Origin: Schizochytrium sp. TIO01
Taxonomy: Eukaryota; Sar; Bigyra; Thraustochytrida; Thraustochytriidae
NCBI GenBank assembly: GCA_004764695.1
Contig: SMSO01000007.1
Span: 2,363,270-2,427,269 of the forward strand
Direction of reading: 5' to 3'
DNA length: 64,000 nucleotides
Position numbers and translations under genes: made by a program. The notes under the pieces were generated by a model. It was given only the letters and a program-made list of their open reading frames with translations. It did not search any database and was not told the DNA's origin. Positions 19,745 through 56,965 of this stretch are shown here, in pieces; position 1 is the first letter of the stretch; each line of letters begins with the position of its first letter.

Positions 19745-21454
19745 AATTGAGTGCGAACGGTGGTGGGGGCACTCTTGCTGGAGACCACACAGGTTAGGCA
19801 TGCCAGTGGATCAACCAATCAATGTACTTTGTCACAATCATCTTATCATCTTCAGGCTAGCCAAGGGAAGCTCTCCGCATTCTAGTAAGTAGTTGAGTAG
19901 CAGATCCATGTCGAGCTTCTAATTCACTGGAAACTTGAGCGTTCTAGCTATAGCAGGTATCTCAGGCTGCATCAAAGTACCTAGCTACTAAGTGCTTATC
20001 TTTTGATGCATTCGACAGACATGGTGAAATTGGCAGCCAAGAACCCTGAGGACCAAGGCCGAGTTGGAATCTGCAGGACTGGAAGATTTGCAGTCCTGCC
20101 ATCGTCTTCTACCCATACCCTCCGGCAAGAGCAGTAGCACGAGCAGCAGCCTGGTCGAGCATGCCTAGGGTCCACAGCCCTTATCAGATGAGGATCTTTC
20201 TTCGACTAAGCTTCGTCGCATACCTTAACTACTTTGTTCCCCATACGCACATGATCATCTTCAAACACATTAACTATTTACTTTCTTCTTAAGAAAGTCT
20301 TTTGTTTTATGTCTATTAGGGTCTGGTTATTATGTTGGTAGGTATTGTTGCGACAAAAGAACAAAAACTCTAAAAACAGGGAATAAGAAAACTTTGAAGG
20401 GCAAGAAAAGAAAAAAACTATCATGAGGTCCAGAGAAGAGAAAAGGTACTAATCGCGCTAAATCGACCCCCCTTCGCACTCCACCTCAAAGCGAATCACT
20501 GCAAGTTTGCAAGGCAATACTTCTATTATACTTTGGAAGCTTCCATCGTCAACAATCGGCAGGAATTGTGGCCCGCTGCTGGCTAGTCATTTGGACCACG
20601 TACGTCCAGTATTCCTTTCCTTGATCGCCAAGCTCCTCTCGCTATTCCAACCCATGGAAGGAAGGATCTTGGTTCTCTGATGAAAGCTTAGGTATCGCCT
20701 TTCTTTTTACTTCAAAACTTTTCTTTTCAAGTTGCTTTATTTTTTAAAATAGTTAAAAACAACTTTAATAAAAGAACGATAAAAATAATATTTATATAGC
20801 CTGGATAGTATGTAGTTAAAAGAGGCAAACTTTCTTTAATTTATTGAAAAACACTTTTAAAACTTGTAGCTGCAGCCTCACGTGTTACCCTAGTGGTTCG
20901 ATTTTCAAAAGTGTTCTGTTAGAAAAACGTAACAAAAAAGTTCTGAAAGGAATAAGAACATCTAGGTGCTCGAAATACATAAAATTTTGAAGCAGCAAAT
21001 CGCAAACCACGAGGGCATTGGCGTGGCTGCCTACGCCCCCCTGCCTCATTACAGAGGCGGGTGGTAGGAGGCCTTGTAATAGCTACTACAGATTGAGCAG
21101 AGAGGAGAAGAAGGCATCGTCCATAGCAAACTAAAGGGTCTTTTGCTCCCTTGTTGTTATTTGCTTCTTAGGAGCAAGAGAAGTAAGTGCAAGCCAGCGG
21201 AGTAGAGGTTGTGCCCTTTCGCGTCACCAAACACTAGTTCTTTTGGCTGACAGATAAACTACGCGAAACTAATTGATAGTTTCAGGGTGAGGCACATTAT
21301 AGCTCATTGACGTGAGAAGCACGAAATAAAAGCGACATTGACGGTGATATCATCAAAACAGAATCACTTAGAAAGAAGCAGCTATAACTCGCACTTCTCA
21401 CTGATTGTAGAGCTTAGTTACTTGTTGGCTGGCGTAGAACTCGTACGCAAAACC

Positions 21455-23131
21455 ATGACCGAGGCCGAGTTCGAGACCGTTTGGGAATCAGATGAGCTGC
21501 ATGCACTGCGTGTAGCAGCACAGCGATACTCGCGAAAGACACACCCAGACAAGAACAAGAGATGGAAACTCATTGCGAAGGAAATTGGCAAGAGCAAACG
21601 AGAATGCTATAGGCGCTACCAGGAGCTGAAGGTAGAGCAAAGTGAATTACGTCGATGTCCATCTGACTCTAGCGTGCTCTCTAGTGTGAGAACGGTGTCC
21701 TCGGATAGTCTTCTCTCCAGTGGTGGAAACAGCGTCTCCAGTGGTGCAAGCGCCATGAATGCCAGCACAATAAGTAGTGCCAAAAGCTTCGGGAGCAGGG
21801 CAAGTTCGAGCATCAGAAAATTCAGAAAATCTAACAGCTCAAGATCTGTGGTGAAAACATCAAACTCCAGCAAGAGCTATCCTTTACCAGAAGCTACGCC
21901 TGACTTTTCATTCTGTGTTGAGGCGAAGTGCGTTCATGGAAATGCTATGAAGGAACATGCCGATCTTGCCATTTATGATCTTCATGAACCTGCAGAAGAC
22001 TCCGTCAGTGAATGCAAGCTCTCCAATGATAGCCTCGATACCTTTGTGGAGGCTTCCACCCTTACCTGCTCACCTCGTACAGTACGTTCCATCCGTACCG
22101 ATGAAGCTCGCGACATCTTATCTCTTCTTGTGGGGGGTGCTAAGCTACGTGTTGGCCTCGACACAGGTTGGCGTAAGCAGGGTTTCTTTTTTGGAGAAGG
22201 CGCAAAGCCACGCTATGGACTTGTCCAGCTAAAGGGTGGCCCTTGTGGCGCAATTGCAGTGGTTCAAGCATTTGTTCTTGTGGAATTGCTTTATGGAGTT
22301 AACATGCCTGCTGCCATCCGTTGGGACCGCCCTACCTCTGAGGAGCGTCGCCGAGCGCTCACAGAGGCTCTTACAACAATTATTTGGCAGGCTGGGGATC
22401 GTGTGGCTAACGTTTGCGTGGTAGATGACGGTGTTGCAGATAGTAGCTCAGGAACAGGGCAAATGATGGTTCACCAAGCACAAAGCCGCGAAGATGTTCG
22501 TGACATTGTTGACGGGCACATTGAATCCTTCATGCGCCCTCAAGGGCCCGGAGTACTTCTGCTTCTCTTTTCTGTCATCCTTACCAGGGAGGATATCAAA
22601 TCCGACATGGACCATGCTTTGCATCCAGGCGAGACTGCCCTCATTGGGCGTCACAACTACGCTGGTCAAGAGCTTGTGAACCTTTTGCTCTTTGGTCGAG
22701 CATGCTCAAATGTATTCGATGGGAAAAAGGATCTTGGTCAAGGCAAAGATAAAATGGTTCTGCAGGGTGTGGAGCGCCATTGCGAGGTCGGCTTTCTCAC
22801 GCTTTTTGAGCACTATGGCTATATGCAGGTTGGGTCGCTTCTCAAGGAGCCTCTTTTTCCTGTGTGGGTACTGTGCAGCGAATCTCATTACTCAGTTCTT
22901 TTCTCTGACGGTCCTGAATGTCTGAACTCAAGTGAACCATTTGATCTCTATTATTATGATCAACTTGGCAATCAAGAAGAACAGTATCGGTTGACCGTGA
23001 ATCCCGACCCTGACTGTCCAGTGGAGCATAGTACAGATGAGTCGCGGCTGGTCTCTCCCATTGATGACTGTATACGAACGAGATGGCCTGGTGCCACAGT
23101 TGATTGGAATGGATCGGATCCTCTTTTGTGA
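21455..23131 (+). CDS. SANT-like plus MINDY-3/4-type deubiquitinase
   Basis: A 558-aa protein with two parts. Residues about 5-54 look like a SANT/Myb-type helix bundle (VWESDELHAL, then RWKLIAKEIGKSKREC). A Ser-rich linker follows to about 150. Residues 216 to the end match the MINDY-3/4 domain (old DUF4205), a cysteine protease that trims Lys48-linked ubiquitin chains. The catalytic Cys264 lies in KGGPCGAIAVVQA and the His478 in SESHYSVLF. Both expected residues are present, so activity is likely. The frame is open upstream to 21338, but the ATG at 21455 has the best context (ACCATGA) and leads straight into the SANT segment. Its 3' end faces the piggyBac-derived gene 668 bp away. The MINDY call is firm; the SANT call is moderate. 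I do not know this pairing from well-studied MINDY proteins. Confidence 0.88.
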   Translation: MTEAEFETVWESDELHALRVAAQRYSRKTHPDKNKRWKLIAKEIGKSKRECYRRYQELKVEQSELRRCPSDSSVLSSVRTVSSDSLLSSGGNSVSSGASAMNASTISSAKSFGSRASSSIRKFRKSNSSRSVVKTSNSSKSYPLPEATPDFSFCVEAKCVHGNAMKEHADLAIYDLHEPAEDSVSECKLSNDSLDTFVEASTLTCSPRTVRSIRTDEARDILSLLVGGAKLRVGLDTGWRKQGFFFGEGAKPRYGLVQLKGGPCGAIAVVQAFVLVELLYGVNMPAAIRWDRPTSEERRRALTEALTTIIWQAGDRVANVCVVDDGVADSSSGTGQMMVHQAQSREDVRDIVDGHIESFMRPQGPGVLLLLFSVILTREDIKSDMDHALHPGETALIGRHNYAGQELVNLLLFGRACSNVFDGKKDLGQGKDKMVLQGVERHCEVGFLTLFEHYGYMQVGSLLKEPLFPVWVLCSESHYSVLFSDGPECLNSSEPFDLYYYDQLGNQEEQYRLTVNPDPDCPVEHSTDESRLVSPIDDCIRTRWPGATVDWNGSDPLL

Positions 23132-27291: not shown

Positions 27292-28625
27292 GGGGAAACG
27301 GTACAACGCGAGTAGCTTAGACTCTTACTGTTCGCAGCGCCCTTGGACAGTTCTTTGGTCGAGGCACAAGTGGATGAACTTCAGACAGTTGATCAACTGG
27401 TCAGCAAAATATGAAAGTGAATTGAACGAGACTGAAAAGTAACCGGAGCGCGCAAGTGCAGGACTGGTACCTAGAGCCAGGAACTGCTACGACTTGATTG
27501 CACTTTGCTGTTGTATAATATTGCTGCTGACTTTCAACATGGCAAGACTCACTCTACTTAGAACTCATTTTCAACTTTGTATGCAAATGGCTCGACTGTC
27601 TTTTCTAATAAGTCTCCCAGCAACTTGCTACCTAGGTGGTACTAGTAGAGCCTATGCATTAGTTAGCCGAAAGTAGGGCAGCTGGCCCCTGTATTTGTGC
27701 TTGAAAATGGCGTTCCTGCTAAGACGCATGCTCGTTTCAATTTATTCAATCAACGTAGCTACATTTTCCAGGATAAGCGATTGATACTAGCTAGCTTCAC
27801 ATATGGATGAAGAGCAAAGCCTTGAACACATCACGCAATCGATGAGAATCCCAACAAGTTGCTAGTCCTTATTTCTTTGAAGTATCTCAGGCTGCCGTGC
27901 AACCAGAACTCAAGAGGGAAAATGTAGAAACTCGAATAGCAGAAGATTTATACAAATGAGATAGTTTCGAGAAGATTATGACCAAACTGCACAGAGTGTT
28001 TATTGCAAGAGGTTATGTAGTATTCAATAATTTTTGTGAAATCTAAAATTAATAGATTATGCGTTATTCTCCAGTTTCCACGTACATGCGAAATCTAGTT
28101 TTGCGAATTAGCAAACAGCAAGCTGCTGCTGTGATTTCATTTCGCACAAGTACCAAACATTCTATCGTTCTACTAAGTTTTGTTAACTTTCATTACTTTT
28201 CTTGTAGATTTGTAGGTTATGCATGAAGCTGCATTTTGACAAGAAACAAGAAGAAATAATAGATATAGCTAAGATTTAAACATTTAGAAAATGCGCGATT
28301 CATTCAGCCTCTTGCAAGCTTGAGGTATATCGAAATGCAAAATTTGTGCAAGAGCGTAATCCCAACTTCAACTACTTAATGAAATAGTACCTACTCCTAA
28401 CTGCTAACTACTTACTGTAGATACATCTATTTTTATGAACAAACTCTAAATGGGCACTGATGGGAGGAAGCGGATAGGGTTCATTGCGAAGCAACGCTTC
28501 GCACGGACTTACCATTTAAAGCCATTTCTGCAAGAATATAGGTGTTGCAACCCTTGTTGCTGTTGTTCTCTAAACGCGAGTGCGTGAGTGGCCCAAGGTT
28601 AAAAAAAAAAAGACTCACACTCATC
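27292..28625. other. Divergent promoter region
   Basis: 1.3 kb between the starts of the piggyBac-derived gene (-) and the polycystin-like gene (+). Both promoters must lie here. AT-rich in the middle (27950-28300). No repeat or other gene is evident. Confidence 0.5.
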
Positions 28626-31550
28626 ATGGCAACTTCTGGAGCATCTCCAAATATTAGACCTCCAGAACTTCGCGAAAGCGCTTATGAAGAAAGTCGGCGA
28701 GAGCGCGAAGGGTATCGCCGGCGATTCCAGGATGAAGACACCCCAGCAGAGTTTCGCTACAAGTTTCTTGACCAAAAATTGGCGGTTCGCATGCTGCTGA
28801 GGACTCGGAGGAGACGCATACTTGTGCTGGAGTGCGCTGCTTATACAATATTAGTGGGCTTTTACTGCATTTATCTCTTTGCGTTCATGTCGCTTCCAGA
28901 CTCGTACTTGTATAAACGTCTCTTTGCACAGACACTTGCGACTAAGCCGTTTAACTTTGAAAGAGTCTTTTACCGATACTCTCCCGGTGGTGGCGAAACT
29001 CCTTCGGAACAGTGCACCCTGCCGCTTAAAAGTGCGAGCGACGTCTTCACAAGTAGCACTGCACAGAACAATTCAATTCCTTGTCTCCAAGGAATTCAGT
29101 CGCTTACATTTGCAGAGATTCAAGATGTGGACCATACATATAGCTGGCTGCAGTTCGTTCTACTTCGATCACCCCTTTTTGTGGGTGGTGAAGACCGATC
29201 TCAAGTTTTTGTCACTATGACAGCTTCTTTAGAGGGCCAAAGCGAAGACGATAGTCGTACGACACTAATAATGCCTGACAACTCGTTTATTCCGGTAGGC
29301 GCGGTTCGCCTGCGACAACTTCGCGTAAAACGGGCCCCATGCTCCAATGATACAGTATTCGAAGGCCAGACTTGTAATTTACCATTCAGCGAAGCAAATT
29401 TGAACACATCCGATATAGTGGGTACCTCCTCAGGCCGACTGTATTCCTTCCAAAGTGCGGATGACTTGGCTAAGGCAAGCTTTTCAGCTTCAAACATTGC
29501 GAGCGAGGTCAACCTCGACTCTGGAAAGCTTAATGCGCCAGACACATATCAAGGCATTCTGGAGAATTACCCTGGCTCCGGGTACGTGATTGATATTGAG
29601 GGTGGAAATGGAACAATAGCAACCGAAACATTTGAACAACTGCAAATGGACCGCTGGATCGACGAAAGTACAGTTGCTTTATTTGTTTCGTTTACGGCTT
29701 ATGCTGTCAATTTAGATACTTACATACACCAAACATTTCTTGTAGAGCTGAGTTCATATGGCCTTACTGCTACAAGCATGGAGACACGCCCGTTCAAACT
29801 ACTAATTTCTCAAGATGGTGCATGGGCTTTGGAGATCTTATTGATGACTCTTTCAAGTGTGTTATTGGTTTTAATATTTTATTATCACTTTTGGCCTGCT
29901 TTGCAAACATCTCGATCGATCACAAGCTTACTTCTCGGGTGGGATATGTATGATGTTTTCAACTTATCTATGGTGATTGCGTCAGTAGCTGTACGAATGA
30001 CTCTACGAACATCTAGCACGGCACAGCTTGCAACAAAAGAGGCAACACTTGTCTCCCTGATGACAGAAAATCGTCGTGTTTACCCTGCAGTGTATGAGAG
30101 TTATTCACGAGTATTAGTTAAAGCGCAAATGCTGGCTGGGTGGTCTCTCGTCATTTGCTTTCTCAAGTACTTTAAGTACGTGGACATGAATAAGCGGTTC
30201 AGCATTGCACTTGCAAGTCTTGTGGAAAGTCGAACTCGGTTGGCTGGTTGGCTTGTATTTACTGTGATTGTAATTCTTGGCTTGACATTCTTTTGCATGT
30301 TTGCTTATGGATTTTATTCATTACGATTTGCAGAATTTTCTGAGTCTTTGACTAGTTTGCTTCTCTTTATGGTGCAAATTTTTGGGGAGGGATTTGACCA
30401 TCTTTCTGGAAGCGATGCTGCTACCTCATCAAGTTGGAGTTCCTTGAGCTTTGTTGCTTTACGCTATGGAACTACAGGGCTGCCGATGAGTCTTTCTGCG
30501 TTTGAGGTAGTGGACAAATCGTATTCAATTCCTCTTGCACAGAGCCTATTTTTTTCAATTTTACTTGTGGTTGTAGTGATCATTCTTGTGGCTAATATGT
30601 TTCAGGCCATTCTGATTTTAGGCTATCAAACAGTGGCTCACCAGGTTCAAGAAGATGAAAATCTGCGCAAGGAGCAGCGCGAGGTTCTTTTACGTAGTCA
30701 AAGAATGTTAAATCAGAGTTGGTTAAGACGCCAAGTCAAAGAACTAGGCCGCATGCTACGATTTCGAGAGCATGCTCGGATTATCAACCAATTACAATCA
30801 GCCCCTGAAGCCCGAGCACGTAATCTTCTGTCATACGCAGAGGTTCGACGTCTTGTAGGAGAAATCGTGACCACTGATTCCCAAAGAGCATCAGAAATAG
30901 CCTATGAGCTAATGTCCCTGTATCAGACTACACTGTCTAGGATTGATGATGCTGTAATTTTGTTCCAGGATCGTGCAATTGCCTTACGGGAGGGCCGTTT
31001 GCACGAGAAGTTAGATCCTTCCGAGCTCCCTGTGATAGACCCTTCCCAAGGCTTTGACGCTGCTCAAGCAGAGCTGTGGCGTAGGGATCTCCAGTCCGGT
31101 GAGCTCCTTCAATCAATGCTATTAGTACATAGTTTGCAACTAGAGGCCTCATCAAAGCATTTCAAGAAGGATTTGGATCAAATTCTGCAGGGTGAAAGAG
31201 ACCACCGGGAGCTGTGCATCAATTTAGAGACAGCAATGCACGAACTCCAATCGAAGGAAATTGCGAAAAAGGGTGATATTCGTACATCACAGGACCCATA
31301 TGAAGCTCGGCCTGGATCTATTGTGGAGGTTCGAATTGATGGTTTATTTGATGCTCATTTTGTCAGTCAAGGCGGACACCATACATACCTGGGTTGTTAC
31401 CCTACACGTAGTGCTGCACAAGGTGCCATTGAAGACATGGCGGTTCGAGCCACGATGGAAGATGCTCAAACTCTTCGACTTCGTAATGTAAGTCGCGAAT
31501 CTGGTGCTACTTCTCCTCCCGGTTCTATATCATATCATGATGGGGAATAG
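28626..31550 (+). CDS. Polycystin-2-like (TRPP) cation channel
   Basis: This 974-aa protein has the layout of polycystin-2 channels, which pass Ca2+ and other cations, often in cilia. A basic N-terminus (1-64) leads to TM1 at about 65-88. A roughly 310-residue extracytoplasmic loop with paired Cys (C130, C153, C239, C250) and several N-x-S/T sites matches the polycystin/TOP domain. TM2-TM5 are near 400-424, 441-460, 497-518 and 539-565. The pore segment ends in IFGEGFD (585-591), where polycystins carry an LGD-type filter. TM6 is at 640-666. The cytosolic tail (670-880) is charged and coiled-coil-like. Residues about 903-940 (FDAHFVSQGGHHTYLGCYPT, then AAQGAIEDMA) resemble an AP2/ERF-type domain, which is unexpected. 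The ATG at 28626 (ATCATGG) is preferred over the upstream GTG frame. The channel call is secure. Confidence 0.88.
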   Translation: MATSGASPNIRPPELRESAYEESRREREGYRRRFQDEDTPAEFRYKFLDQKLAVRMLLRTRRRRILVLECAAYTILVGFYCIYLFAFMSLPDSYLYKRLFAQTLATKPFNFERVFYRYSPGGGETPSEQCTLPLKSASDVFTSSTAQNNSIPCLQGIQSLTFAEIQDVDHTYSWLQFVLLRSPLFVGGEDRSQVFVTMTASLEGQSEDDSRTTLIMPDNSFIPVGAVRLRQLRVKRAPCSNDTVFEGQTCNLPFSEANLNTSDIVGTSSGRLYSFQSADDLAKASFSASNIASEVNLDSGKLNAPDTYQGILENYPGSGYVIDIEGGNGTIATETFEQLQMDRWIDESTVALFVSFTAYAVNLDTYIHQTFLVELSSYGLTATSMETRPFKLLISQDGAWALEILLMTLSSVLLVLIFYYHFWPALQTSRSITSLLLGWDMYDVFNLSMVIASVAVRMTLRTSSTAQLATKEATLVSLMTENRRVYPAVYESYSRVLVKAQMLAGWSLVICFLKYFKYVDMNKRFSIALASLVESRTRLAGWLVFTVIVILGLTFFCMFAYGFYSLRFAEFSESLTSLLLFMVQIFGEGFDHLSGSDAATSSSWSSLSFVALRYGTTGLPMSLSAFEVVDKSYSIPLAQSLFFSILLVVVVIILVANMFQAILILGYQTVAHQVQEDENLRKEQREVLLRSQRMLNQSWLRRQVKELGRMLRFREHARIINQLQSAPEARARNLLSYAEVRRLVGEIVTTDSQRASEIAYELMSLYQTTLSRIDDAVILFQDRAIALREGRLHEKLDPSELPVIDPSQGFDAAQAELWRRDLQSGELLQSMLLVHSLQLEASSKHFKKDLDQILQGERDHRELCINLETAMHELQSKEIAKKGDIRTSQDPYEARPGSIVEVRIDGLFDAHFVSQGGHHTYLGCYPTRSAAQGAIEDMAVRATMEDAQTLRLRNVSRESGATSPPGSISYHDGE

Positions 31551-32112: not shown

Positions 32113-34554
32113 TTACTTCTTCTGAGCGGCATCACGACGCTCAATGTTGCGCTCAAACGCCTTACGGAGAGTGTCAGTATCAACCATGAATGCGTAGGAG
32201 TCATTCTCCGGGTTAGCAGCCATCCAGCCGATCTCCTTGGCAAGACCCATGGTAGCATGTCCGCCAACAAAGTGCTTGTCGTACTTCAGGGTGTCAAGCA
32301 CCTGGTCGATTGTCATGGTGTCAGGGACGAAGCAGGGGAGACCAGTGGCACCAACAATCTCGTAGTGCTCGTCGACAACGTTCTCCTTACAAATGCCGAG
32401 GAGGTAGGCGACCTCAGCAGAGACACACATACCGATGGCAACGGCCTCACCATGGAGCAGAGGCTCATTGCCATGATGCCAGGAAAGGTGCTCGATGGCA
32501 TGGGCCGGGGCATGGCCATACTGAGGCACCATCTCGTTGTAGGCGTGCTCAGCGTTATAAGCTGGTCCGAGAGTAGAGACCTTCTTCTCCATGCATTCAA
32601 TAATAAGGCGAAGAAGATAGTCTCCATCGTGGAAGACCTCGGAGCGGTTCTCACCAGCGTCACGAAGAGGGTCGACGATCAACTTTGTGAAGTCAGTGCA
32701 CTGGCACACAGCGTGCTTAAGGGCCTCAGCGATACCATTGAGAATGTGGCGGTCACTGAGAGACTTGAGACAGTCAGGGTCCATGACGAGGTAATCGGCA
32801 GGGTAGTAGCAACCCAAGAGGTTCTTACCAAAGTCCTGGACGTTGAAGGCCTTCTTGAAATCACACGAGGCATCGCACATACCCATGGTGGTGGTCGGGA
32901 TGGTCACGAGCTTGATACCACGATACAAAGTGCCTGCAATCGTACCTGTGATGTTGTCTACAGTACCACCTCCGAGTGAGATGAGACAGGTGTGCTTGGA
33001 CACTCCGGTGGCGAGAATCTGGTCAACGATGCGGTGAAACTGCTCCTTATTTTTGTAAGGTTCAGTAGAGGGCTCACCAGAGTCATCCATGGCTGCAGAA
33101 GGAATGACAATCTTGTCAATGGTGAGCCCAGCGTCGCGGAAGCCCTGAAGGACCTCATCTGCGTAGAGACCGTCTACGATCTCATCAGTGACGAGATAGT
33201 TGTGAGCCTCATGGGAAACCTCAGGGACAATGGTCTTGCCGATGGTGGCAAGGTTCTTGAGGATGCCACGCTGGATGACGATCTCTGTCTCGAGGTATTT
33301 TCCGGGTCTCTCGAATCTGTTACGGAAGCATCCGTTCTCGTCGACTTCACAAGGCGTACGGAATGCCTGCGTTCCGGGATGTCCTCCACGCACACAGTAT
33401 TCGGAGTCCTTGTCGAGATCGAACCAAGGAGGGCTCACGAAGCGAAATCCGCGGTCAAGAGCGTTGATACGCTCCATCTGAGGGTTCGTAAGACGCCAGT
33501 CGAGTACATCGCGGTTGGCGTGAATTCGCTCTGGGTTAAGGCTCTTGGGGATTACAGTGGTGCCACGCTGGATACCCCACCGGAGGAGTACCTGGCCAGG
33601 CGCCTTGCCAACCTCTTCGGCGATCTCAAGAATGGTTTCGTCCTCGAGAAGCGAAGGGTCACCCTTGTTGCGGTAACCGACCTTGCCAAGAGGCGAATAG
33701 GCGATGACGTTCACACCCTCGGTCTGGCAAAGCTCAAGGAGGCTGGGTTGCTGGAGGTAGGGATGCATTTCAACCTCGAGAGCGAGAGGACGGATGTCGC
33801 ACTTCTCGAGAAGAAGCTGCAAGGTGCGAGCACCCATGTTGGAGACACCAAGGTAGCGCACGAGTCCGAGACCGACGAGGCGTTCCATGGCCTCATAAGT
33901 CTCCATGATCTGGTCGATGTCAGTTCCGTCATGAACAACGTCGTACTCAAACTCGCCTCCGAAATCTGGTGAGACCAGCTTGCCTCCCTTAGCCATGCGG
34001 TTAGGCCAATGCATCATGTAACAGTCGAGGTATTCGACTTGGAGGTCCTTCAAAGTGCGACGGCAGGCATCCTCCACGTCTTCCGGCGCGGCATCCCAGC
34101 ACCAAAGCTTGCTACATACAAAAAGGTCATCGCGCTCGACAAGACCTTCATCGAGGGACTCGGAGATGGCCTCGCCAACCTCCTTCTCGTTTCCATACAG
34201 TGCGGCGCAGTCAATCATGCGGTAGCCCTCTCCAATGGCGACCTTGACGGCCTCCTTTACACGGTCACCATCCTTGAACTCGTTGAAGGTACCGAATCCG
34301 AGGAGAGGAACAGCCACTGTAGGTTGTGAGACAGTGGAGCTGGTTCGGGAGCGGGTCTCGATAAGGTCATCGAGGGTGCTGAGAGCGGCAGAGCTATAGT
34401 TGGAGCTCATTTTGGTCTCGCTCTCAGAGCTGCGGAGAGAATCAGTGGTGCGAATGGCATCATCCTTGGAGGTGTTGTCTACAACCTTGGGGGTCAGGAT
34501 AGTGTCTTCCTGCTGCTGCTGGGTCTGCTGCTCGATCTGATTGCTGATGGCCAT
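32113..34554 (-). CDS. Aldo-keto reductase / sugar-phosphate cyclase fusion
   Basis: An 813-aa two-enzyme protein. Residues 1-80 are Gln/Ser-rich. Residues about 82-370 form an aldo-keto reductase (NADPH carbonyl reduction) with the full tetrad Asp115, Tyr120, Lys149, His182, a GVSN motif near 237, and the cofactor site VIPKSLNPERIHAN. After a linker (373-420), residues about 421-800 form a dehydroquinate-synthase-fold cyclase that uses NAD and a metal. Metal ligands are Glu610, His681 (GHAPAHAIEH) and His701 (LLHGEAVAIGM). Key cyclase residues are GGGTVDN (528-534), Lys567 in FKKAFN, and GKN (576-578). Asn534 and the lack of GGKTGVN argue against true dehydroquinate synthase and point to the 2-deoxy-scyllo-inosose synthase branch. 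Substrate and product are inferred. The ATG (AAAATGGCC) is well placed. Codons are strongly C/G-ending, unlike neighbouring genes. Family calls are firm; the cyclase subtype is moderate. Confidence 0.9.
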   Translation of the reverse strand: MAISNQIEQQTQQQQEDTILTPKVVDNTSKDDAIRTTDSLRSSESETKMSSNYSSAALSTLDDLIETRSRTSSTVSQPTVAVPLLGFGTFNEFKDGDRVKEAVKVAIGEGYRMIDCAALYGNEKEVGEAISESLDEGLVERDDLFVCSKLWCWDAAPEDVEDACRRTLKDLQVEYLDCYMMHWPNRMAKGGKLVSPDFGGEFEYDVVHDGTDIDQIMETYEAMERLVGLGLVRYLGVSNMGARTLQLLLEKCDIRPLALEVEMHPYLQQPSLLELCQTEGVNVIAYSPLGKVGYRNKGDPSLLEDETILEIAEEVGKAPGQVLLRWGIQRGTTVIPKSLNPERIHANRDVLDWRLTNPQMERINALDRGFRFVSPPWFDLDKDSEYCVRGGHPGTQAFRTPCEVDENGCFRNRFERPGKYLETEIVIQRGILKNLATIGKTIVPEVSHEAHNYLVTDEIVDGLYADEVLQGFRDAGLTIDKIVIPSAAMDDSGEPSTEPYKNKEQFHRIVDQILATGVSKHTCLISLGGGTVDNITGTIAGTLYRGIKLVTIPTTTMGMCDASCDFKKAFNVQDFGKNLLGCYYPADYLVMDPDCLKSLSDRHILNGIAEALKHAVCQCTDFTKLIVDPLRDAGENRSEVFHDGDYLLRLIIECMEKKVSTLGPAYNAEHAYNEMVPQYGHAPAHAIEHLSWHHGNEPLLHGEAVAIGMCVSAEVAYLLGICKENVVDEHYEIVGATGLPCFVPDTMTIDQVLDTLKYDKHFVGGHATMGLAKEIGWMAANPENDSYAFMVDTDTLRKAFERNIERRDAAQKK

Positions 34555-47640: not shown

Positions 47641-48741
47641 TTAAAGACGCGAGATTGCTTGTTTGTATGGCTCGAGATCCATCCCAAGAGCACCCCAGCG
47701 AACCTGGGCGGCCTCTAAAGTAGCAAGTGTCCAGTACGGATCTCCTGGCATAGGAAATCCTAGGACTCCTCGTTGCTTTGGCGTAAGAGAGACAAACAGC
47801 TTTTCAAAGGCTCCTATAGAGGGCTTTGTTGGATATAAGTCCCCCCCAGCAAGAACGTGTTTGATGTTGTAGAAGAACCTTGCAAACCCCGTGTTCCAAC
47901 TATTTACTCTGTCTGTGGCAGCCCGTTTAAAAACAAGATTACATACTAAACGTGATGCACCCGGACGAACGGGTCTTCCCCTATGCCAAACATCGTGACG
48001 ATATAAAAGAACTGTGCCAACACTGAAATCAACGAATTCCTCACGACAGTAGAGCTCTTTCCTTTGCGCATAAAGCTCTGGGTCAGCATGGCGGAGGTAT
48101 TCCTCTGCCTGAATACGGTCGTTGATCCAAGGTAGCACCCCAAAGCCCGGCATTCGGTATGGCCATGCATAAGCAGGATCACAATCTCCTCTGCGTGCTA
48201 CAATTCCCGTACGCCCATCACATACGGAGGAATCATCTAAATAAACAATCACCGCAACTGTTTCAGGTTCATGGAATGGCGGAGGATGGTTCAGATCATG
48301 GTTGGGGAAGTCCATGTGCATGCGTTGCTCAATACTCCCGTATGGACTCCGCTGTGTTGCCTCCATTGAAATTAAACCTTGGAGATTTCTGTCATCTTCG
48401 CCGTGCTTGAACCAGGCGTCTGCTTGGGTAAGACGGATGTCTTCGCATGCCAAGAGGTCTCGTGCGGCATCCTGTAGAGCGGGAGCAAGGAACAAATCAT
48501 TCAAAGATTCCTGAATTGCAGGGAACTCGAACTTTCCTTGGGATCCAAACGGCATCTTACCCTTTGTAGGCTGGCGTCTCTCTTGTTCAGCCAAGTTGGC
48601 CTGCTGCGATAGAGCGGATGTTTTGCATGCAGCTCGAACTTGTTCGCAGAAGTCAAGACTGTAGATTCGACCAGGCTCTAGAACACAAAAGCCATTTTCT
48701 CTCCATTGGCGTTTCTCTTCGGCGGTGAGTACTGAAGTCAT
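47641..48741 (-). CDS. Phytanoyl-CoA dioxygenase (PhyH)-family oxygenase
   Basis: A 366-aa Fe(II)/2-oxoglutarate-dependent oxygenase of the PhyH superfamily. Members hydroxylate lipids or small molecules using O2 and 2-oxoglutarate. The iron triad is visible: His142 and Asp144 in RMHMDFPNHD, and the distal His253 in HDVWHRGRP. Arg264 in PGASRLV is placed to bind 2-oxoglutarate. The N-terminus (LTAEEKRQWRENGFCVL) is the usual start of this fold. There is no signal peptide, and the C-terminus (ISRL) is not a clear peroxisomal signal, so a peroxisomal phytanoyl-CoA role is not supported. The C-terminal 90 residues, rich in Trp, Tyr and Pro, extend past the catalytic core. The ATG at 48741 opens the frame. 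The substrate cannot be read from the sequence. Confidence 0.85.
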   Translation of the reverse strand: MTSVLTAEEKRQWRENGFCVLEPGRIYSLDFCEQVRAACKTSALSQQANLAEQERRQPTKGKMPFGSQGKFEFPAIQESLNDLFLAPALQDAARDLLACEDIRLTQADAWFKHGEDDRNLQGLISMEATQRSPYGSIEQRMHMDFPNHDLNHPPPFHEPETVAVIVYLDDSSVCDGRTGIVARRGDCDPAYAWPYRMPGFGVLPWINDRIQAEEYLRHADPELYAQRKELYCREEFVDFSVGTVLLYRHDVWHRGRPVRPGASRLVCNLVFKRAATDRVNSWNTGFARFFYNIKHVLAGGDLYPTKPSIGAFEKLFVSLTPKQRGVLGFPMPGDPYWTLATLEAAQVRWGALGMDLEPYKQAISRL

Positions 48742-55255: not shown

Positions 55256-56965
55256 ATGGCTATTCTTAATGGAAAGCGAGCTGTAGTTTTTGACCTCGGT
55301 GGCGTGGTCCTCGGATCACCTTTGCAAGGAATTGCAGAGCATGAAGAAGAGTTTGGAATTCCTGAGGGCTTTGTGAACATCAGCATCGTTACCAAAGGCA
55401 GACAGGGTGCATTTGAGCGTCTTGAGCGAGGCGAACTTCCCCTGGATGATTTTTACCGCGAATTCCGAAGCGAGCTTGCAGAGCCGGAGAATATCAACAA
55501 CTTCAAAAGCTATCTTCGGAAAAAGGGCCGTCCTGTACCAGAGAACCTCCCCGATCATTTCGACATTGACACTGAGGTCATGTTTAACACAATGATGGAG
55601 AGAGCTGCAGCCATCAACGAAGACATGTGTCATGCCCTCTTTGTACTACGTGGCCTCGGTCTCAAAGTTTGTGCTCTAACAAACAACTGGAAAATGGGAG
55701 GCGATAAGGACTCGAGCTCCACTCAAGCACTCACAGCCTTTTTCGACGATATCCTCGAAAGCTCCGTGCTTGGCTTACGTAAACCCGATGAGAGAATTTA
55801 TCGCTACACAGAAAACCATCTCGGTGTTCGGTCTGAAGAAATTTGCTTCCTTGACGATATTGGAACTAATGTAAAAGCTGCACGTGAACTTGGGTGGACT
55901 ACTGTTAAAGTAGAACTGGGAAATAAAAAGAAAGCTCTTCGCGAGCTCGCACTCGCCTTAGGACTGGCTGAAGACACCTTGCTAATCCATAAGGACAAGC
56001 CTACAGAACTTCGTTTGCCCGTTTCCCCAGGAGGTGACTTAGTTTGCGACTTGTATGGTCGAGCCATTGATCCAGTCGTGCTCTTTCTTCACGGAGGCGG
56101 GCAGACCCGCCATACGTGGGATCGTAGCGCTCTTGAATTTGCTGCTCAAGGTTACTGTGCTATTCTTGTTGACATGAAAGGTCACGGTGAAAGCGCTTGG
56201 GATATGCGTAACGACGTGAGTGATCAGGACCGCTACTCTGTGACAGCATATAGTGAAGACATTGACCGCATTGTCAAGTATCTGAAGCTTCAGGAGCATC
56301 CGCGTGGCTACGCTATCATCGGAGCCTCTCTTGGTGGTATTTCTACTTTGGAAAGTAAAATTGCATTTCCAAATGCACGCGCAGTTGTGCTTGTGGATAT
56401 TATTCCTGAGATGGAGGCCGCGGGTGTCAATCGCGTGATAAGTTGGATGCGTGAGACAGGTGAAAGTGGGTTTGCTAGTCTTGAAGAAGCTGCCAATGCG
56501 ATTGCGGCGTACAATCCCAATCGCCCTGCACGTCCTATCGAAGATGTTATGCTTGGTCTGCAAAAGAACCTTCGACAAACACCGGATGGTCGATGGGTTT
56601 GGCACTGGGACCCGAAATTCGTCCAGTCGCAGGTGCAAGGGCCAGAAGCAAAAACGGACCTTCAGAACTACAAGAACAAAATCACCGCTGCTGCAGCAGA
56701 GTCTCAAACACCTTGCTTACTCGTTCGTGGACGTCAAACAGACCTTGTGAGCGAGGAAGCTGCTGAGGAGTTTGTCAAAGTTATGCCTAACGCTCGCTAT
56801 GTCAATGTTGAGAATGCCGCTCACATGGTGGTTGGGGACCGCAATGATGCCTTTGCACGGGAGGCAATCGGCTTCTTAGGAGAATACTTAACGCCCGATC
56901 CACAAGCTAAAGATACGCCCATACCTGCTCTGGGAGGTTCTGGTTCACCTTCTGCTAAGCTTTAA
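55256..56965 (+). CDS. HAD-like / alpha-beta hydrolase fusion enzyme
   Basis: A 569-aa protein with the same order of domains as animal soluble epoxide hydrolase. Residues 1-225 are HAD-like: motif I VVFDLGGVV (Asp13, but Gly15 where a second Asp is usual), motif II Thr142 in LTNN, Lys176 in RKPDE, and acidic pair Asp200-Asp201 in FLDD. Residues about 260-545 are an alpha/beta hydrolase: oxyanion motif FLHGGGQTRHTW, nucleophile Ser358 in GASLGG, acid Asp496 in RQTD and base His523 in NAAHM. Epoxide hydrolases use Asp as nucleophile, so a Ser points to an esterase or other serine hydrolase. The DLGG motif I is shared with ACAD10- and YihX-type HAD proteins and may lower phosphatase activity. 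There is no targeting signal. The ATG at 55256 starts both frame and domain. Substrates are unknown. Confidence 0.87.
   Translation: MAILNGKRAVVFDLGGVVLGSPLQGIAEHEEEFGIPEGFVNISIVTKGRQGAFERLERGELPLDDFYREFRSELAEPENINNFKSYLRKKGRPVPENLPDHFDIDTEVMFNTMMERAAAINEDMCHALFVLRGLGLKVCALTNNWKMGGDKDSSSTQALTAFFDDILESSVLGLRKPDERIYRYTENHLGVRSEEICFLDDIGTNVKAARELGWTTVKVELGNKKKALRELALALGLAEDTLLIHKDKPTELRLPVSPGGDLVCDLYGRAIDPVVLFLHGGGQTRHTWDRSALEFAAQGYCAILVDMKGHGESAWDMRNDVSDQDRYSVTAYSEDIDRIVKYLKLQEHPRGYAIIGASLGGISTLESKIAFPNARAVVLVDIIPEMEAAGVNRVISWMRETGESGFASLEEAANAIAAYNPNRPARPIEDVMLGLQKNLRQTPDGRWVWHWDPKFVQSQVQGPEAKTDLQNYKNKITAAAAESQTPCLLVRGRQTDLVSEEAAEEFVKVMPNARYVNVENAAHMVVGDRNDAFAREAIGFLGEYLTPDPQAKDTPIPALGGSGSPSAKL

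Follow-up and report, generated by a model that had tools for sequence, protein, structure and literature searches.

A fused aldo-keto reductase and sugar-phosphate cyclase in Schizochytrium sp. TIO01, a candidate one-protein quercitol synthase

The genome of the thraustochytrid Schizochytrium sp. TIO01 (64.06 Mb in 37 contigs) carries a gene in which an aldo-keto reductase (AKR) is joined in one frame to a sugar-phosphate cyclase (SPC), and the active-site fingerprint of the cyclase half matches none of the SPC classes with which it was compared. We read this half as a putative new SPC class, nearest to the 2-deoxy-scyllo-inosose synthases (DOIS), whose substrate would lack an acid group; what appears to be new is this class of cyclase in a new fusion, with a chemistry that is predicted. 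We consider it somewhat probable that the fusion is a bifunctional deoxyinositol (quercitol) synthase, in which the SPC would turn a hexose 6-phosphate into a deoxyinosose, to be reduced to quercitol by the AKR. Within this reading, the C6 substrate, the order of the steps, the product and the osmolyte role are the parts that we infer.

A two-domain gene kept in two copies

The gene lies in the 64,000-nucleotide stretch of contig SMSO01000007.1 analysed here (the window). Its features, followed by those of the annotated neighbours, are as follows.

32113..34554, minus strand: fused AKR-SPC gene, a single frame of 813 codons without a stop, starting at ATG
34318..34554, minus strand: N-terminal residues 1-79, weakly conserved against the paralog (44% identity); both copies start MAI and share ETKMSSN (residues 46-52)
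33454..34299, minus strand: aldo-keto reductase domain, residues 86-367, with D115, Y120, K149, H182 and an IPKS motif
33268..33423, minus strand: linker, residues 378-429, with 96% identity to the paralog and a dN/dS of 0.015
32140..33267, minus strand: SPC domain (residues 430-805), which the tree makes the sister of DOIS
32821..32856, minus strand: fingerprint residues 567-578 (KKAFNVQDFGKN), with KQA[VI]N at the same place in DOIS rows
32452..32556, minus strand: fingerprint residues 667-701, with N667, E674, Q678, the metal ligands H681 and H701, and H685
28542-31550, plus strand: polycystin-domain channel-like gene (Pfam), tail to tail with the fusion gene
55256-56965, plus strand: HAD hydrolase fused to an alpha/beta hydrolase (Pfam), presumably soluble epoxide hydrolase-like
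47641-48741, minus strand: phytanoyl-CoA dioxygenase (PhyH) family protein (Pfam)
21338-23131, plus strand: MINDY-3/4 deubiquitinase (Pfam), with a weak Myb-like region under the cut-off

A preliminary description of this DNA had proposed that one 813-codon frame joins a complete AKR to a complete cyclase of the dehydroquinate synthase (DHQS) fold, and had named four catalytic residues in each half; both proposals hold. The frame starts with ATG, and all three of its Pfam matches exceed the curated cut-offs: Aldo_ket_red at residues 86-367 (E 6.9e-51), DHQ_synthase at 496-604 (2.5e-25) and DHQS_C at 607-761 (9e-19). The first half belongs to the aldo-keto reductases by PF00248 and by Asp115, Tyr120, Lys149 and His182, which we take to be the AKR tetrad and which align with identical residues in aldehyde reductase 2alr, the closest solved structure (phmmer E 1e-76). 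The likeness to 2alr, presumably human AKR1A1, extends over the whole AKR domain, including the tetrad and the IPKS motif, whereas the C-terminal part of the AKR in the fusion continues into a conserved linker to the cyclase. The second half belongs to the SPC superfamily by PF01761 and PF24621, by its E/H/H metal ligands and by a conserved lysine, with Lys567, Glu610, His681 and His701 aligning with K141, E183, H246 and H262 of the DOIS BtrC. On the opposite strand of the gene (window 32257-33972, plus strand) there are long open frames of 240 and 326 codons, perhaps a by-product of codon bias. Among the AKRs of the genome, the next closest one found (C6:1016311-1017153; L163:1429-3552, minus strand) is 38% identical and is itself fused, behind a TauD-type dioxygenase.

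A paralog of the same AKR-SPC architecture is encoded at C34:1011163-1013622 (819 residues from its ATG, 86% identical); within about 20 kb around it lie two further long frames and an antisense one. Between the two copies dN/dS is 0.059 for the AKR, 0.015 for the linker and 0.035 for the SPC, and 0.37 for the N-terminal 79 residues, at dS values near saturation (about 1.2 in the AKR and in the SPC, 2.3 in the linker, 1.8 in the N-terminal residues). The AKR, the linker and the SPC are thus under strong purifying selection, and the recurrence of the same fusion in the paralog together with the low dN/dS excludes a chance frame. The 96% identity of the linker argues against two separate genes, a possibility that the preliminary description had left to transcript data: as predicted from the DNA, each genome copy is a single frame free of interruptions, and the linker is strongly kept. 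Two adjacent genes or a mis-assembled fusion would be hardly credible here. Such artefacts occur in general, and this explanation is backed by no result of ours; against it, two contigs carry the same fusion, dS between the copies exceeds 1, and conservation of the linker is no lower than that of the domains.

Codon usage was compared with a reference of two elongation-factor-like frames, L210 and L211 (own values 0.861 and 0.635). The fusion copies reach adaptation values of 0.59 and 0.63. In comparison, 11 other frames of the window, which are open frames and not all proven genes, lie at 0.22-0.34, the stand-alone DHQS of the genome at 0.51 and the polyunsaturated fatty acid (PUFA) synthase at 0.67-0.69. 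The four elongation-factor-like frames span 0.45-0.86, and the two outside the reference lie at 0.780 and 0.449, one of them below the fusion. The codon bias of the fusion is therefore closer to that of the PUFA synthase than to that of the other window frames. The PUFA synthase is of PfaA type and is read in two open frames (1031 and 2172 residues; C4:608161-617209), between which there may be an intron or a frame break; with its in-frame neighbours it scores 1157 bits against a cut-off of 1010, which is exceeded in 0 of 14 control genomes. Its presence is in keeping with a thraustochytrid.

Searches of viral contigs, of 794 prokaryote genomes drawn for the purpose, of phages and plasmids and of pattern-matched loci gave no close relative of the fusion outside this genome. 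In viral contigs, SPC and AKR searches gave no confirmed match and a motif search gave none, and a peptide search of prokaryote genome contigs for relatives of the fusion likewise gave none that was confirmed. The pattern GHxxAHAxEH occurred in 109 stretches, and in a tblastn over loci L010 to L131, these stretches and eight loci of the same genome among them, the best-scoring match had 32.9% identity over 307 residues. When a profile built from both copies was applied at E 1e-37, two genomes out of 396 and two out of 398 had matches; the best score, 141 bits, is close to the range of 65-125 bits reached in 12 other genomes. Searches by tblastn of phages (14 records) and plasmids (115 records) gave nothing at 60% identity or above, and megablast against E. 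coli gave no match to the fusion. There was no sign of a metabolic gene cluster among the seven window frames scanned with Pfam, four of which have families and three none.

Placement of the cyclase half

The SPC half was placed in a maximum-likelihood tree (LG+C20) of 72 rows and 372 columns, with support given as ultrafast bootstrap/SH-aLRT. Its 15 DOIS rows are BtrC (named as such in the PDB), two annotated DOIS (L005 and L006), two sequences annotated otherwise (L007 and L008) and ten matches of L006 from 9 of 297 genomes, and its 17 sedoheptulose 7-phosphate cyclase (S7PC) rows are L004 and L009, annotated as such, and 15 drawn from the matches that L004 has in 50 of 249 genomes. EboD is represented from 8 of 14 genomes over the cut-off and PlyaRel by four of four over it; the 24 DHQS rows were hand-picked, many through the pattern GHxxAH, and the label aDHQS (aminoDHQS) rests on neighbouring genes. 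One of the DOIS-like rows (L008:2854-4002, plus strand) is a Streptomyces plasmid cyclase that is annotated as hypothetical and lies beside an aminotransferase and an inosamine-phosphate amidinotransferase.

The two fusion copies are sister to all 15 DOIS-type rows (99/97), which are themselves grouped at 99/93, placing the fusion beside DOIS and not inside it. The union of SPC and DOIS was supported at 98 in three trimmed quick trees. These omit 25 of the 72 rows and, in a next step, 10 or 4 more of the DOIS rows, and for one tree there was a warning of long branches meeting. The stem branch of the SPC is very long (2.45 changes per column), the composition of the query was flagged as deviant in the careful tree, and by path length in the full tree the nearest rows are DHQS and not DOIS. 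Mean identity of the SPC half is 26.3% to DHQS, 26.0% to DOIS and 24.6% to S7PC rows. In the AU test, alternative placements were disfavoured and not rejected (S7PC, p 0.063; EboD, 0.111; DHQS with 12 rows, 0.060; aDHQS, 0.095).

The active-site residues were compared across the same 72-row alignment. Resemblance to DOIS (BtrC, PDB 2d2x/2gru) covers the SPC fold, the positions of the metal ligands, a KxAxN-like motif, a YGH motif and the lack of the DHQS arginine, in addition to the sister position in the tree. The fusion differs in being eukaryotic, in being joined to an AKR, in its identity of only about 26% to DOIS rows and in the residues that mark this class: Gln142 of BtrC, a glutamine in 15/15 DOIS and a threonine in 17/17 S7PC, is Lys568; Glu243, a glutamate in 15/15 DOIS and an aspartate in 17/17 S7PC, is Gln678; and K322, a lysine in 15/15 DOIS, is His761. 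Judged by BtrC Glu243 and Gln142, the fusion falls outside DOIS.

The fusion shares Asn667 with all 17 S7PC rows and Glu674 with 16 of them, where all 15 DOIS rows have glycine or alanine. It departs from these cyclases (EEVS/DDGS type), which also yield cyclitols, at the second His of GHTxxH and at residue 658: these are proline and methionine in 17/17 S7PC, and His685 and Lys658 in the fusion, as in 15/15 DOIS and 24/24 DHQS. That the gene is a C7 cyclitol enzyme, its SPC acting on sedoheptulose 7-phosphate in valiolone- or gadusol-like chemistry and its AKR reducing a C7 ketone, thus draws on Glu674 and Asn667, on an AU value that leaves room for a clade of the query with S7PC (p 0.063) and on the occurrence of gadusol and other C7 cyclitols in marine organisms, as given in the accessible part of PMC4426668. 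We nevertheless regard it as rather unlikely, given the histidine and lysine in place of Pro685 and Met658 and the S7PC clade (100/100), which forms apart from the fusion. S7PC identity was accordingly set aside on the fingerprint, with no support for it from the tree, and a C6 substrate is favoured over a C7 one for the SPC, as a prediction from these residues and the tree.

The preliminary description had also asked whether the cyclase half would group with the DHQS of the shikimate pathway. As far as the alignment can tell, it groups with DOIS instead, the AU test stopping short of a formal rejection of DHQS (12 rows, p-AU 0.060). Likeness to 3-dehydroquinate synthase (AroB/AROM) lies in the Pfam domains, the metal ligands and a similar raw identity, and structure matches are of similar score, with DHQS 3zok best (117 bits) and DOIS 2d2x/2gru at 104.5 bits. 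In DHQS the arginine of RxLLNxGHT holds the carboxylate of DAHP. This residue is Arg in 23/24 DHQS rows and Glu674 in the fusion, as expected for a substrate without a carboxylate, and the asparagine of the GHT region (22/24 DHQS rows) is Gln678. Against the NCBIfam aroB cut-off of 305 bits the two fusion copies score 188.8 and 190.1, and two annotated plasmid DOIS score 262.6 and 246.8, below the cut-off as expected for DOIS.

A genome-wide PF01761 search, which ignored introns, found at least three places, namely the two fusions and C35:83115, where a stand-alone DHQS reaches 328.9 bits and so exceeds the aroB equivalog cut-off of 305. That frame (L001:1420-2616, plus strand) closes with a tail containing PPGGASSIIFG, a motif that we take to resemble Hn1/Jupiter proteins. 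A dehydroquinate synthase fused to a reductase, giving quinate or a side product of the shikimate pathway, is highly unlikely: the 3zok match, mean identities to DHQS and DOIS rows within 0.3% of each other and the AU value of 0.060 speak for it, and a cut-off missed by more than 110 bits, the replacements at Glu674 and Gln678 and the separate genomic DHQS speak against it. We therefore rejected shikimate DHQS identity on the aroB score and the missing arginine. EboD (PRK06203; 136.0 and 139.4 bits against an NCBIfam cut-off of 333; AU p 0.111) and PlyaRel (P_lya_rel_AroB, TIGR04425; 132.8 and 134.0 bits against 400) were each rejected by score, and the tree lends them no support.

Predicted chemistry and the quercitol osmolyte

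DOIS acts on glucose 6-phosphate, in pathways that lead to aminoglycosides; C5 of the hexose becomes a ketone, C6 becomes a CH2 group and C6 bonds to C1. By analogy, the C-terminal SPC of the fusion, as a eukaryotic sister lineage of DOIS, would use a bound NAD+ and a metal ion for the transient oxidation of a hexose 6-phosphate at C4, followed by elimination of phosphate, ring opening and carbon-to-carbon re-closure (C6 to C1), to give a 2-deoxy-inosose. Reduction of the ring ketone by the fused AKR, at the expense of NAD(P)H, would then yield a cyclohexanepentol (quercitol) that may accumulate in the cell as a compatible solute. The AKR step is expected to come second, since an aldehyde reduced beforehand could no longer serve as aldol acceptor. 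An osmolyte made in bulk calls for plenty of enzyme, and the codon adaptation of the fusion is consistent with this role and not proof of it.

Quercitols are found in oaks, eucalypts and thraustochytrids. In Schizochytrium sp. S8 and three related thraustochytrids, (-)-proto-quercitol and glycine betaine are reported as principal compatible solutes (Jakobsen et al. 2007, as cited in the accessible part of PMC6923395). A 2021 review, in the portion available, relates quercitols to environmental stress and states that the plant pathway of quercitol synthesis is not yet elucidated (PMC8919412), and our literature search, over sources available in part, returned no quercitol biosynthetic gene or enzyme and no AKR-SPC fusion. 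The vertebrate gadusol route also couples a eukaryotic SPC to a second tailoring enzyme; according to the accessible text (PMC4426668), it differs in having two genes, EEVS and MT-Ox, a sedoheptulose 7-phosphate substrate and a methyltransferase-oxidoreductase instead of an AKR as partner. The cyclitol osmolyte suggested in the preliminary description thus gains from the probable identity of the cyclase as a non-DHQS sister of DOIS and from this physiological context, its chemistry standing as a prediction.

We enumerated the stereochemistry of DOIS-type products from five hexoses. Glucose gives scyllo-, vibo- or muco-quercitol and never proto, and mannose gives proto (1S,2R,4R,5S) with trans closure and trans reduction. 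Galactose gives the mirror image of the mannose product (1R,2S,4S,5R), which we take to be the (+) isomer, and altrose, an uncommon metabolite, leads to the mannose enantiomer. If the product is (-)-proto-quercitol and the mechanism is of DOIS type, D-mannose 6-phosphate would thus be required among the common hexoses; if the substrate is glucose 6-phosphate, the product should be scyllo- or vibo-quercitol. The second case, a DOIS-type enzyme on glucose 6-phosphate whose AKR gives one of these quercitols or a product that is not an osmolyte, has in its favour that the sister group in the tree takes this substrate. It is clearly unlikely in our view, since the thraustochytrid cyclitol in the literature, so far as the available text goes, is the proto isomer, unreachable from glucose here, and since the active site is unlike DOIS at 568, 678 and 761. 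As a more specific and tentative version of the quercitol synthase, we propose that the gene may encode a one-protein eukaryotic enzyme of a new SPC class, sister to DOIS, that would convert D-mannose 6-phosphate to an epimeric deoxyinosose and, through the fused AKR, to (-)-proto-quercitol.

If correct, this would fill in the missing pathway to a main organic osmolyte of thraustochytrids. It would also enlarge the sugar-phosphate cyclases by one class, bring DOIS-like chemistry into a eukaryote and provide a chiral cyclitol by way of one gene. Since the substrate prediction is clear and concerns a single gene, the question of quercitol synthesis becomes directly testable.
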